NCBI GenBank assembly: GCA_023265135.1
Contig: JAHFUM010000001.1
Coordinates: 375,632 to 439,631, forward strand
Length of the DNA: 64,000 nucleotides
DNA from: Nitrosarchaeum sp.
Lineage (GTDB): Archaea > Thermoproteota > Nitrososphaeria > Nitrososphaerales > Nitrosopumilaceae
Direction of reading: 5' to 3'
Shown here: one piece after another, positions 55,499 through 61,881 of the stretch
Layout of the letters: each line of letters opens with the position of its first letter
How positions within the stretch are numbered: position 1 is the first letter of the stretch
Translations under genes and position numbers: made by a program
The notes under the pieces: generated by a model
The model's input: only the letters and a program-made list of their open reading frames with translations
Told to the model about the DNA's origin: nothing
The model's database searches: none

Positions 55499-56350
55499 TC
55501 AATACAATTCTTTATACTTTGACTTTAATTCTTCATGAGATGCTACAATAGAAAAAGCCTTTACAACATCAGTTTTACTCACAATTCCAATCAAATTACG
55601 CTTTGAATCTACTACTGGAATTCCTCCAACCTTATTTTTTATCATTTTACTTGCTGCTAATGCAAGATCACCTCCTTCATTAATTGTTAATAGTTCATCA
55701 GTTATCAAATCACCAACTGTTAGTTTGTCACCACCTATTGGAAGTAAATAATCTCTAGATCGTGTATTACCTTTAGTAAAGTAATCACTATGTGTCAGTA
55801 ATGTATTCGTACTAATAATACCAAGTGGATAACCATTTTCATCAGTTACAACTAACCTTGAAACCTGATTTTTATTCATTAAACTTAATGCAAATTTGAG
55901 AGAATCAGATCTTCTACAAGTAACTACTTTTTTATTCATAAAATTTTTTACCAAATATTTTCCACCAAAATCACTTGCATAAGATTTTGTTAAATCTGTT
56001 CTTGAAATAACACCTATCAATTCACCATTATCATTAACAAGAACCACTGAACCAATTTTGAAAGTTTCCATTCTAGTAGCACATTGATTAAATTGTTCTT
56101 CCATACCATCAGTTATTGTAATTACATTTTTTTGCATTACATGTTTAATTGGAATCTCATCCATTACATGTGCAGTTTTATCTTCTCCAAGAAATCTATT
56201 GATATCTCTTTCAGTAACAATTCCAAGTGGCATGTTTTTATCGGTAATTACTATATGTTTAACAAAATTTGTTTGCATTTGTAATAATGCATCAAAAATC
56301 GATGATTCTGGTTTAACAGTAATTACAGGAGATGAATATTTTTTTTCCAT
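55499..56350 (-). CDS. Four-CBS-domain protein
   Basis: A 283-residue protein of four CBS motifs (about 8-62, 72-130, 138-190 and 215-270) with the signatures PLGIVTERDINRF, LIGVISRTDLTKS, PLGIISTNTLL (which has lost the Asp) and LIGIVSKTDVVKA. The third motif is probably weak in ribose binding. Stand-alone nucleotide sensor; the neighbouring genes are another winged-helix regulator and a damaged CBS gene. Confidence 0.88.
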   Translation of the reverse strand: MEKKYSSPVITVKPESSIFDALLQMQTNFVKHIVITDKNMPLGIVTERDINRFLGEDKTAHVMDEIPIKHVMQKNVITITDGMEEQFNQCATRMETFKIGSVVLVNDNGELIGVISRTDLTKSYASDFGGKYLVKNFMNKKVVTCRRSDSLKFALSLMNKNQVSRLVVTDENGYPLGIISTNTLLTHSDYFTKGNTRSRDYLLPIGGDKLTVGDLITDELLTINEGGDLALAASKMIKNKVGGIPVVDSKRNLIGIVSKTDVVKAFSIVASHEELKSKYKELY

Positions 56351-56910: not shown

Positions 56911-57213
56911 TTATAAAATAGAAGATATGAGACTAAAATGATTTCTATAATAGGTAGTGGTAGAAGTTTCTTCAACATATATGATTGGTTTCATTATTTT
57001 GTTGATCATTATATCATCTAACCCTTGCTTGCTAGTTTCAGAAAAGAGAAACATCCCAACATCTTTTTCAGTTATAATCCCTATGGGTTTCCCACTTTCT
57101 ATGACAATTAATCTACTTATATTATTTTCAAGCAATTTTTTAATTGCATTAGATATTGTTGAATTATTTAGAATAGAAATTGGTTTTTTACAGATATCAG
57201 AAACAAACATCAT
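56911..57213 (-). pseudogene. Truncated CBS-domain protein
   Basis: A 100-residue frame with one good CBS motif (about 10-58, ending KPIGIITEKDVGMFL) and the beginning of a second (DIMINKIMKPIIYVEETST), where similarity stops and a low-complexity run (TTTYYRNHF) leads to the stop. Complete CBS pairs in this window are about 140-150 residues, so the second half of the Bateman module is missing. A CBS module normally needs both halves, so this is probably a decayed gene. Confidence 0.6.
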
Positions 57214-57924: not shown

Positions 57925-59070
57925 ATGGTGGAAAGTAACTATGACATATTAGGAATAATTGAAGGCTCTACTGAGAAAGACATTCGTAATGCATTTAGAC
58001 GATTAGCACTTCGATACCACTCTGATAAAGGGGGGGAAAATGATCAATTCATTAAAATCAAACAAGCCTATGAAGATCTCAAAATAGGTAAAAAATATCC
58101 CGAAACAGATTTAGAAAAAATTAGAAATTCAAGAGTTTATTCGGGTGATTCAGAAGAGAACATTCGAAGAAAAAATCAAATTTTAGGCCAAGAATTATCC
58201 AAAGAAATGAAAATAGCTGAAGAGTGGGCAGCAGATCTAATTAGAACAAATTCAACTGCAACCAGACTATTTGGTTCAAAAACTCTTGGAGAAATTGAAC
58301 TTGAAAGGAAAGCTAACGGTGTACTTTCAATTAAAGGAAATTTTATGGCAGGTAATCTAACTTATGATGGCCCTATTATTATGCAAGGAAATATCACAAG
58401 TCCATCATGGACTGAAGAATTTAAAACAAATATTCATCTCATAAAAGGTGATTTTAAATTTATTAATCCTCTTGAAAATAAATATAAAATTGAGAATGGA
58501 GCCAAAATAATTGTAGATAGTGGTAATGTTGTAGTTGGAAACGTTTTTGGTAGAAAATACAAAATTGAAGATCCAGAAGGAAGAGTTGGAATTTACCAAA
58601 CTCGAGAACAACGAACCCTCATATCAGCACCAAAAGGAAAAATTATTGCTGAAAATATAATTAATACAGTTTCTCTTGATGCTGACTCTATAATAGTTCT
58701 TAATTTGGAAAATGATGTTCAAATTAATGCACGAGAAATTTTATTATATGGAAGTAAAATCACATATGATGTAATAATTAAATTAAAAAAAGATGGTTTT
58801 ATAAGATTTTTTGAAAATTTTTCAATTCAAAGTCTTAGTAACGATGCAATTATCAAACTTGAGAATGGAAAAGAAATTAGATTGTTTGATATAAAAACCA
58901 AAAAAATTAAAGATTTAGCAGATGAATTTGTGGCTAACAAGAATGAATATGATAAAGATGTTACAATGGTAGGTAATGGATTTACAATAACATATGAAAT
59001 GTTAAATAATTTATCAAAAAAACCTATAAAAAACCAAAATTCAGGATGGTCTTCGAAATTTAGATTCTAG
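57925..59070 (+). CDS. J-domain protein with altered HPD motif and beta-rich C-terminal domain
   Basis: A 381-residue protein. Residues about 5-53 form a J domain (NYDILGIIEGSTEKDIRNAFRRLALRYHSDKGGEND and AYEDLK), but the invariant HPD triad that stimulates Hsp70 is HSD. Helical linker to about 110, then about 220 residues of repeated short beta strands (GVLSIKGNF, NLTYDGPIIMQGNI, GAKIIVDSGNVVVGNVFG) suggestive of a beta-solenoid or bactofilin-like polymer, and a C-terminal helix. No zinc CxxCxGxG module is present, so it is not DnaJ itself. Function unknown. Confidence 0.75.
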   Translation: MVESNYDILGIIEGSTEKDIRNAFRRLALRYHSDKGGENDQFIKIKQAYEDLKIGKKYPETDLEKIRNSRVYSGDSEENIRRKNQILGQELSKEMKIAEEWAADLIRTNSTATRLFGSKTLGEIELERKANGVLSIKGNFMAGNLTYDGPIIMQGNITSPSWTEEFKTNIHLIKGDFKFINPLENKYKIENGAKIIVDSGNVVVGNVFGRKYKIEDPEGRVGIYQTREQRTLISAPKGKIIAENIINTVSLDADSIIVLNLENDVQINAREILLYGSKITYDVIIKLKKDGFIRFFENFSIQSLSNDAIIKLENGKEIRLFDIKTKKIKDLADEFVANKNEYDKDVTMVGNGFTITYEMLNNLSKKPIKNQNSGWSSKFRF

Positions 59071-59195
59071 GATTGAATTGAAAACTTTTCTAAATTAATT
59101 ATTAAACACAAATCAATTTCTTTATAATGAATAATTTTCTTAATTTAATATGATTACCTGATTTCCCCTTCATAAAACAGGTATTATATTTGAAA

Positions 59196-61004
59196 ATGCT
59201 AGAAGAATTGATATTCATATTAAATTTAGAAAGAACAATGCAAATTTCATTTAGTATAGATAAAAAATTAATACTTATAGTGATTATAGTATCTACAGTT
59301 ACACTTCTAGTTACCGCCTACTTGAGTTTTAGCTATGCTGAACAAATTCTAATAGAAAGAGCCAACAATCTTCTACTTGGTGAATCTGCAGCACGTGGTA
59401 ATACTCTAAGACTTCTTTTTGAATCGCGAATTGAACAAAATAAAATTTTAGCAAATGATCCAATGATAAAAATTCTTGTTACTAAATTAAGTGAAACACC
59501 TGAAGATGAGTTTGATAAAGTTAGAGAGAGTAAACGTAGAGACTTTCTTACTCAAATTCAGGCATTTCAAACGCTAGTTGGATTTTCAATTGGTTTTGAA
59601 GACGTAAAAATTATTGGAACAAACGGAAAAGTTTTCTTTTCACTTGGCAAACTAACTGATAATAATTTTCTCCATGATCCATTATTTCAAAAAGGTCTAA
59701 AAAAATCAATAATTGATTTTGAGCCATCTCCTACAGGAAAGAAAATGATCGTAGTTTCTCCAATTTTTGCACAAGATAGTAAAAAAAATGATGATCCAAT
59801 AGGAGTAATTATTTCAAGAATGAGAACCGAATCATTAGATAATATCTTACTTGATAGAAGTGGATTAGGTAAAACTGGAGAAGTTTACATTGTAAATGAT
59901 GGATTTTTAATGTTATCTGAATCTCGATTCATGAACAATACTATTTTCAAACAAAAAGTTGATAGTATTCCTGTTCAGAAATGTTTCAGAACAGGAGAAG
60001 AATTTACAGGATTTTATCCTGATTATAGAAAAATCAACATTTATGGTTCTTCTTATTGTGCTAGTGATTTAGGATTTGTTTTGCTAGCAGAAATTGGAGA
60101 AAAAGAAACAATTCAACCAATTTTAATACTTCAAAACAGAATTTTTCAAACTGGTCTAATAATTACAACTGTAATGATCATTGCCGCATTTATAATTTCA
60201 AAATCTATGTCACGACCTCTGATAAAATTAAAAAATGCAGCAAACCAAGTTGCAAGTGGGGATTTTCATGTTCGAACAAATATTACAACAAGAGATGAAA
60301 TTGGCGAGTTATCTCATGCGTTTGATTTAATGACTGAAAAACTTCAAAAATCATTAATTGAAATTAAAGAAAAAGAAGATGTCATAAAACAACAAGAAGA
60401 TATTTTGTTACAATTTTCTGATTATAGTGAAAAATACTGTGTATGTATGGTTGATATTATGAATTCAACCAAAATTACTTCTAAATTATCTGAATCAGAA
60501 ACTAGTGAATTTTATAAAATTTTTCTTAATTCTATTGCTGTAACTGTAAGAAATTTTGGAGGTATTGTAGTAAAGAATATTGGAGATGCATTATTATTTT
60601 ATTTTCCAGTTATATACTCAGAGGAGGAATTTACCTTAAAAAAATGTCTTGATTGCTGCTTGACTTTGGGTGAATTACATGACGATATAATCAATAAACT
60701 AGAAAAACAAAACCTCCCTATTTTTGATTATAGAATTAGTTCTACCTATGGCATTGTTAGAATAGCAAAAACATCAACATCTTCTGTTAATGACATTTTT
60801 GGAAATACTGTAAATCGTTGTGCAAAGATAAATAGAATTGCACCTGCAAATAGACTAATTATTGGTGACGAATTCTATGACAGCGCCAAAATTTTTAATG
60901 ATTATATATTTAAAAAAATTGATAGTGACATAACAACACAAGAATCTGGTTATTCAGGATATCTTGTTTCAAGAAAAAACATACTTGATAATATTAAAAA
61001 TTAA
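59196..61004 (+). CDS. Membrane sensor with HAMP and class III nucleotide cyclase domain
   Basis: A protein of about 600 residues: a first membrane helix (about 26-48), an extracellular Cache-like sensor (about 50-320), a second membrane helix (about 327-347), HAMP (about 347-400; SRPLIKLKNAANQVASGDF), a short coiled coil, and a class III cyclase domain (about 415-595). Metal Asp residues lie in MVDIMNST and NIGDALL; the transition-state Asn is in NTVNRCAKI, where the usual Arg is Lys. It would make cAMP or cGMP on an extracellular cue. The start may be the ATG at 59238. Confidence 0.85.
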   Translation: MLEELIFILNLERTMQISFSIDKKLILIVIIVSTVTLLVTAYLSFSYAEQILIERANNLLLGESAARGNTLRLLFESRIEQNKILANDPMIKILVTKLSETPEDEFDKVRESKRRDFLTQIQAFQTLVGFSIGFEDVKIIGTNGKVFFSLGKLTDNNFLHDPLFQKGLKKSIIDFEPSPTGKKMIVVSPIFAQDSKKNDDPIGVIISRMRTESLDNILLDRSGLGKTGEVYIVNDGFLMLSESRFMNNTIFKQKVDSIPVQKCFRTGEEFTGFYPDYRKINIYGSSYCASDLGFVLLAEIGEKETIQPILILQNRIFQTGLIITTVMIIAAFIISKSMSRPLIKLKNAANQVASGDFHVRTNITTRDEIGELSHAFDLMTEKLQKSLIEIKEKEDVIKQQEDILLQFSDYSEKYCVCMVDIMNSTKITSKLSESETSEFYKIFLNSIAVTVRNFGGIVVKNIGDALLFYFPVIYSEEEFTLKKCLDCCLTLGELHDDIINKLEKQNLPIFDYRISSTYGIVRIAKTSTSSVNDIFGNTVNRCAKINRIAPANRLIIGDEFYDSAKIFNDYIFKKIDSDITTQESGYSGYLVSRKNILDNIKN

Positions 61005-61022
61005 ATATATAACAAAAACAAA

Positions 61023-61349
61023 TTAAATTAATTCAGTTGATTTTTCTTTGGTACTTATATCATATGATTCTTCCACATTTGTTACAAAAATTTTTCCATC
61101 ACCTTTTTGTCCTGTATGTGCAGCATCTATAATAGCTGAAACCACAGAACTAACCATGGAATCCTGAATTATTGTAACTATCACATCTGTAGAATTAAAT
61201 TCAATTTGATGTCCTCCAATTTCAGGTCGTTCACCTGTTCCTTGTCCCAAAGATTGAATCAATGTAACTCCACCAACACCTGTCTTTCTAATTGCTCTTA
61301 CAACTCGTTTTGAAACTTCACTTTGGACAATTGCTTCTATTCGTTTCAT
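61023..61349 (-). CDS. PII-family nitrogen/energy regulator (GlnK/GlnB-like)
   Basis: A 108-residue PII protein. MKRIEAIV at the start, a T-loop with GQGTGERPEIGG (no Tyr51, so no uridylylation as in proteobacteria), and the B-loop TGQKGDGKIFV (about 79-89) are present. The C-loop is unusual (STKEKST). PII trimers bind ATP/ADP and 2-oxoglutarate and regulate ammonium transport or glutamine synthetase. It is monocistronic in this window. Confidence 0.9.
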   Translation of the reverse strand: MKRIEAIVQSEVSKRVVRAIRKTGVGGVTLIQSLGQGTGERPEIGGHQIEFNSTDVIVTIIQDSMVSSVVSAIIDAAHTGQKGDGKIFVTNVEESYDISTKEKSTELI

Positions 61350-61581: not shown

Positions 61582-61881
61582 CTAATCGATTAATTCGGTC
61601 CAACCTTTGATGAAGACTGAGTTCTTGTAGAGTGGAACTGGTTGTCCAACTGTAAAATCCATAGGTCTCATCCAAAAAATTGCCTTTGTTGGGCAAACAC
61701 CGATGCATGCTCCATCTGAGATACATCTTTCTGGGTAGAAGACAAATGCCTTACCTCTCTTCCAGCCTTCAACTGGTTTTACTCTAAGTACATCTGGTCC
61801 TAATGTTGTACAGATTTCTACACATAGTGCACATCCAATACACATTTGTTCGCTGATGTCTGGAATAATTCCTACTGGCAT
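61582..61881 (-). CDS. Ferredoxin with one 4Fe-4S and one Asp-containing cluster motif
   Basis: A 99-residue electron carrier. The first motif is CIGCALCVEIC (about 14-24); the second is CISDGACIGVCP (about 53-64), in which Asp occupies the second Cys position, as in the 7Fe ferredoxins of Sulfolobus and in Pyrococcus ferredoxin. The second cluster is therefore probably 3Fe-4S or Asp-ligated 4Fe-4S. The long inserted loop (TTLGPDVLRVKPVEG) and extended tail are typical of thaumarchaeal ferredoxins. The AT-rich 232 bases between it and the PII gene show no further gene. Confidence 0.9.
   Translation of the reverse strand: MPVGIIPDISEQMCIGCALCVEICTTLGPDVLRVKPVEGWKRGKAFVFYPERCISDGACIGVCPTKAIFWMRPMDFTVGQPVPLYKNSVFIKGWTELID

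Follow-up and report, generated by a model that had tools for sequence, protein, structure and literature searches.

A J-domain gene and its neighbours

The window, a stretch of 64,000 nucleotides from a 1.8-Mb Nitrosarchaeum sp. genome in 25 contigs, carries an open reading frame that starts with the ATG at 57925 and ends with the last stop base at 59070 (Table 1). The initial annotation had placed here a J domain with HSD in place of the HPD motif. This description is borne out, as evident by the H32-S33-D34 that is read at the motif position and by a Pfam DnaJ match that lies above the cut-off for the family (41.9 versus 27.8 bits). Given this score and its E value of 1.1e-10, the resemblance to a J domain does not arise by chance. 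No further Pfam domain was found in the product, hereafter the HSD protein, at E up to 10. The J-domain protein models of NCBIfam match the same N-terminal part partially, none of them near its own cut-off, and a BapA domain model of that collection gives a weak 16-residue match at residues 305-320 (E 0.013).

Table 1. The gene for the HSD protein and its parts, in positions of the window.
Feature	Position	Strand	Basis
Entire gene (381 aa), coding for the J domain, a helical linker and the predicted beta-helix body	57925..59070	+	ORF list
J domain, residues 6-53	57940..58083	+	Pfam PF00226, E 1.1e-10; AlphaFold2 helices 5-9, 17-31 and 40-53
HSD (residues 32-34) in the place of HPD, followed by KGG	58018..58026	+	157 distinct orthologous ORFs
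Long linker helix, residues 77-107, with nearly invariant Trp101	58153..58245	+	AlphaFold2; conservation over 85 orthologous ORFs
Body, predicted as a beta-helix (beta-solenoid), with strands between residues 112 and 319	58258..58881	+	AlphaFold2, whole protein and body alone; structural comparison
C-terminal cap and tail, residues 320-381, final 12 residues of low confidence	58882..59067	+	AlphaFold2

The surroundings of the gene were surveyed by clustering stop-to-stop ORFs from 57 loci, the window included, each of which spans at least 6 kb, with some contigs represented twice. When antisense ORFs inside the J gene are set aside, the commonest neighbours are two downstream, reverse-strand clusters, each represented in 31 of the 57 loci: one is that of the window's ferredoxin at 61582-61881, and the other is that of a further ORF. 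Upstream, no same-strand cluster occurs in more than 13 of the 57 loci. No conserved operon partner was found among the 57 loci, and therefore no client can be named by association.

Several genes near the locus in the window deserve mention in their own right. Directly downstream, 59190-61004 (+) encodes a 604-aa protein that combines a HAMP domain with a class III nucleotide cyclase domain and a Cache-like sensor region, the last scoring under the Pfam cut-off, and ORFs that cluster with it are found in 14 of the 57 loci. A nitrogen regulatory P-II protein (PF00543) is encoded at 61023-61349 (-), near the ferredoxin, which is of the 4Fe-4S type. On the other side, the 100-aa ORF at 56911-57213 (-) looks CBS-like by eye, with a C-terminal part that may be shortened, and 55499-56350 encodes a complete protein that has four CBS stretches.

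Motif conservation and codon history

A full-length search (E up to 1e-20) finds the protein in 179 of 250 Nitrosopumilaceae genomes, including 104 of the 131 that are of good quality, and in 15 of 22 genera, mostly with one copy per genome. A profile of the body only has matches in 165 of 400 genomes of a class sample and in 52 of 397 genomes of a phylum sample, mostly in ORFs of whole-protein length and in a few partial ones (e.g. G143 and G156); none of the matches listed for these two samples lies outside the Nitrosopumilaceae. In the class sample, good-quality genomes of the genera g5, g6, g9 and g14 of this family are listed without a match. The named relatives, at 49-94% identity, belong mostly to Nitrosarchaeum and Nitrosopumilus, with Nitrosotenuis also represented, and others are named to order or phylum only, with one bin labelled Nitrososphaeraceae; these names place the window in the Nitrosopumilaceae, a family of ammonia-oxidising archaea. 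One ortholog (G117:C3:69594-70733) carries a single in-frame TGA over the matched stretch. In the open-licence literature, most of it judged from search listings, we found no paper on an archaeal J protein with HSD or HAD.

A viral or plasmid origin was considered and rejected. Full-length or profile queries match one IMG/VR locus (residues 6-49) and one Bacillus phage, with two records (residues 1-50), so that the viral matches are confined to the J domain. A plasmid search with the J domain only (60 aa) returned 132 records, all of them under 60% identity.

The state of the motif is constant across the family. Among 157 distinct orthologous ORFs, some of the 179 matching genomes having contributed no sequence, 138 read HSD, 19 read HAD and none reads HPD; with the residues that follow, the motif is HSDRGG in 126, HSDKGG in 12 and HADRGG in 19. 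A first, smaller set of 85 distinct ORFs had given HSD 75 times and HAD 10 times, and the two sets together rule out an isolated change or a sequencing error. The initial annotation had proposed to look for the serine in relatives, and it proves not to be an isolated change, with proline in 0 of 157. Arg25, Leu29, His32, Asp34, Gly36 and Gly37 are invariant in 157 of 157, position 35 is R or K in all of them, and R21 and F42 are each kept in 150. Position 26 is not strictly basic, its five commonest residues being R (115 of 157), K (15), N (14), Q (5) and S (3).

Control J domains were taken from nine genomes, that of the window and those of eight relatives (n=35, comprising five J domains of the former and 30 of 35 further matches; the five matches without a locus that were left out are one non-family protein and four family members). 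All 33 that lie outside the family of the HSD protein have HPD, and the two members have HSD. Three outside J domains, of plasmid, phage and viral-contig origin, have the same short loop and read HPDxGG, and for this reason the loss of the proline is most simply taken as a derived state.

Every serine at this position (138 of 138) is encoded by a TCN codon and every alanine (19 of 19) by GCN. Therefore, a proline codon (CCN) lies one base away from every sequence, and from the TCN serines it would be reached by a single transition. Changes were reconstructed by parsimony on a maximum-likelihood tree (FastTree) that comprises 155 of the 157 sequences, two ORFs under 330 residues being left out. 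At the first codon base, Ser to Ala (T>G) occurs eight times and T>C never, whereas the third base of the same codon underwent 29 changes, of which 4-6 are T>C and one is T>G (4:1 versus 0:8, Fisher p 0.007). A tree made without the J domain yields identical first-base counts. Because serine was replaced by alanine eight times and never by proline, although proline is one base away, this reconstructed history, small as its numbers are, points to selection against proline and not to indifference.

Median dN/dS values, computed over 395 non-independent pairs at 86-97% identity, are 0.040 for the J domain, 0.10 for the linker and 0.084 for the body. Constraint is strongest on the J domain, which is under strong purifying selection and is not decaying. 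A non-HPD motif alone may signal a degenerating copy or a sequencing error, but the recurrence of HSD or HAD in all 157 distinct ORFs, which come from many assemblies, along with this constraint, leaves such a decaying or artefactual J domain a negligible prospect.

The predicted fold of the body

When the window protein was modelled whole by AlphaFold2 together with 21 orthologs, from 25 loci, the mean pLDDT was 83.7 and the pTM 0.71; the body alone, with 23 orthologs from 25 loci, reached a pLDDT of 86.8 and a pTM of 0.84. As the initial annotation had surmised, the body is predicted to be a beta-solenoid. A normal DnaJ C-terminal domain is ruled out by the models and by the Pfam scan, in which PF00226 stands alone at E up to 10, and the structural comparison below agrees. 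The earlier estimate gave about 220 residues for the body, where the strands span 208, and left unmentioned the long helix in front of them (residues 77-107); the description of the body as repetitive holds for the coils of the predicted solenoid, that is, in the structural sense only. Indels are seen among the orthologs in the C-terminal cap and tail. Relatives with HPD, or a fold like the DnaJ C-terminal domain, had been set beforehand as grounds for refuting the original observation; neither is seen, and the observation is thereby strengthened.

We read the body as a right-handed beta-helix on the basis of structural comparison of the predicted model. Foldseek gives no match in the PDB at E up to 0.001, the best (E 0.022) being truncated haemolysin A, a beta-helix, and no significant match among viral models (best E 0.058). 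In a structural second look, which re-compared Foldseek's own PDB matches and judged their identities from titles, beta-helix proteins appear by title, headed by the C-terminal domain of a possible adhesin from Caldicellulosiruptor (4wa0, Z 11.9 over 159 residues, rmsd 3.2). They include two-partner secretion domains of HxuA (4i84, Z 11.6) and HMW1 (2odl, Z 10.9), as well as the tapirin C-terminal domain (6n2b, Z 11.2). Scattered among these matches are left-handed hexapeptide enzymes, at a much larger rmsd of 11-12.

Sequence profiles place the body in no known family with confidence. We scanned 33 single bodies, taken from 32 of the 85 distinct orthologous ORFs and from the window, against Pfam at E up to 1, and the matches are weak and sparse. 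Those with most members are PaaA-like_N (5 of 33, best E 0.014) and T4_y05I_N (4 of 33, 0.0083), and those with the best E values are FapA (5.2e-4), DUF2345 (1.9e-3) and DUF4097 (3.6e-3), each in 2 of 33; the last of these is presumably a beta-solenoid. Membership of a beta-solenoid family by way of FapA or MinC_C, which are beta-solenoids, was rejected as resting on too few and too weak matches, MinC_C being hit by one body of 33 at E 0.74. The two-partner-secretion beta-helix family, with which the body shows a fold match at a Z of about 11 (best Foldseek E 0.022), is absent among the Pfam matches of the body.

Bactofilins are beta-solenoid proteins that polymerise without the help of nucleotides, and the initial annotation had likened the body to a bactofilin unit. 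This likeness is not supported: the bactofilin profile, which we take to be PF04519, matches neither the window protein (E up to 10) nor any of the 33 bodies (E up to 1), a result with which a very distant kinship is still compatible, and the structural matches are modest and mixed, some being right-handed beta-helices from secreted proteins and others left-handed hexapeptide enzymes. The absence of bactofilins from the second-look listing excludes nothing. The same annotation suggested that the J domain may have become the scaffold of a polymer, which would make it a part freed of Hsp70 and built into a self-assembling beta-solenoid filament. Such a mechanism would fit the absence of HPD from 157 of 157 ORFs and a predicted fold of a class that polymerises in bactofilins. 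However, the invariance of His, Asp and R25 and the low dN/dS of the J domain would be odd for a domain without a partner, though a new partner could impose the same, and the lack of a bactofilin match also speaks against a filament. We consider the filament distinctly improbable and the polymer-scaffold mechanism possible but unsupported.

Proposed docking on DnaK and known J proteins

Alignment with E. coli DnaJ pairs Y25 with F24, K26 with R25, R27 with R26, H33 with H32, D35 with D34, R36 with K35 and F47 with F42 of the HSD protein, whose J domain thus retains most of its docking face. The one Hsp70 found in the window's genome, a DnaK, retains the E. coli DnaK residues R167, N170, T199, E206, E217, L391, L392 and D393; T215 is replaced by Val, and the pairwise alignment has gaps at the four positions 208-211. 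The view that the J domain has ceased to be an Hsp70 docking module runs against the invariant His, Asp and helix-II R25 and against the constraint on the J domain as the most conserved segment.

In one study, Asp35 of DnaJ contacts R167 and His33 contacts the linker, and in a simulated P34A variant helix II runs on into the motif so that His and Asp lose their fixed orientation (PMC13012618). A 2026 review states that changes of H or D in HPD abolish stimulation (PMC13254874). The initial assertion that HSD abolishes Hsp70 stimulation is carried over from such H and D mutants and from the simulated P-to-A change of other J domains, and not from a protein with HSD (PMC13254874, PMC13012618).

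The reading that we prefer, with a probability of roughly 0.4, is that the J domain docks on DnaK and provides weak or conditional stimulation, so that DnaK is tethered at the site to which the beta-helix binds. Docking would proceed through the basic helix II, His32, Asp34 and Phe42. Because the proline kink is absent, His and Asp would not be held in the geometry that triggers the ATPase, so that stimulation would be weak, slow or conditional. The beta-helix may bind a client or a cell structure, and DnaK would thereby mainly be tethered, held or tuned rather than driven through rapid folding cycles. Counting against this reading are the often non-basic position 26, the AlphaFold2 helix II that ends at residue 31, ahead of HSD, like in a normal J domain, the Val and the gaps in DnaK, and the precedent of the H and D mutants; docking may even be lost altogether.

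A fully working co-chaperone is an unlikely alternative. Ser or Ala would then be tolerated in the shortened HxDRGG loop, DnaK would be stimulated normally, and the beta-helix would be a client-binding domain. His, Asp and most basic residues are indeed kept under strong constraint, DnaK keeps most receiving residues, and AAA in place of HPD reportedly does not fully abolish stimulation in some systems (PMC13012618). A designed J analogue without HPD that, according to the review, stimulates Hsc70 implies that the motif is not strictly required (PMC13254874). However, if proline were equivalent it might have reappeared, lying one transition off, yet serine went only to alanine, and the 33 other J domains of the nine genomes all keep it.

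A regulator of the Pam16 kind, an HPD-less J domain that restrains one of the cell's normal J domains by pairing with it, has a precedent in Pam16/Pam18 (PMC13254874), and the window's genome does encode four J proteins with HPD (DnaJ, DnaJ-Fer, a membrane J protein and a fourth). We nevertheless give this regulator little credence: Pam16 has altered H and D as well (DKE/DKS) in the review's account (PMC13254874), whereas both are invariant here, and no linked J gene recurs among the neighbours.

Beyond the preferred reading of a weakly or conditionally stimulating tether, a more specific proposal is that the J domain is uncoupled from the ATPase, with the docking face kept and only the proline of the trigger geometry excluded, and that it acts as a tether or brake for DnaK, borne by a beta-helix body which may itself form assemblies in the cell. 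We regard this as unlikely. If true, an ATPase-uncoupled J domain would be widespread in one archaeal lineage. This lineage is among the most abundant archaea.

In the words of the 2026 review it 'remains enigmatic' whether motifs other than HPD arose by accident or through selection, and the review also asks whether HPD-less proteins act as competitors for Hsp70 or do no more than recruit it (PMC13254874). The HSD protein bears on this question, since a single change, that of the proline, is present in all 157 orthologous ORFs while His and Asp are untouched, and its codon history argues for selection against proline. Because only the proline is changed, its role can be tested by comparing Ser, Ala and Pro versions on the protein's own DnaK, which makes the HSD protein a good natural test of what the HPD proline does.

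Among known systems, E. coli DnaJ and the canonical DnaJ that the window's genome encodes (L110) share helices I-III and most docking residues with the HSD protein; unlike them, it has a loop four residues shorter and a replaced helix IV region, and neither a Cys-rich nor a C-terminal domain was found, the latter including the substrate-binding domain by which class A and B DnaJ proteins are recognized. DnaJ-Fer, described as a J fusion type of Thaumarchaeota (PMC3564930), is likewise a lineage-specific J fusion protein. Its apparent representative here (L113; G000:C13:7695-7844 and around) looks like a J-ferredoxin fusion with HPD intact and a ferredoxin-like cysteine region, and the two bodies are unrelated. 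Bactofilins also have a beta-solenoid body, that of the HSD protein being predicted and the fold being common to many unrelated families, but the HSD protein lacks their profile match and carries a J domain and a long helix in front. The right-handed beta-helices 4wa0, 6n2b, 4i84 and 2odl resemble the body in fold (Z 10.9-11.9 over 152-194 residues, rmsd 3.0-4.3), but they are cell-surface or secreted proteins at 9-17% identity, with no sequence link found.

The closest relation is to the HPD-less J proteins termed type IV, which the 2026 review characterizes by a recognizable J domain with HPD non-conservatively replaced, as in DnaJB13 (HPL), Pam16 (DKE/DKS) and Plasmodium type IV proteins (PMC13254874). 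The HSD protein shares this trait, as evident by a J domain that scores above the Pfam cut-off and lacks the HPD motif, although here proline alone is replaced. It differs from the type IV examples in that His and Asp are invariant and only proline is excluded, in the constancy of this state across 157 of 157 orthologous ORFs, in its archaeal origin and in its fusion to a predicted beta-helix. The HSD protein thus belongs to the known type IV J proteins as an archaeal variant in which H-[S/A]-D is conserved and the body is predicted to be a beta-helix.
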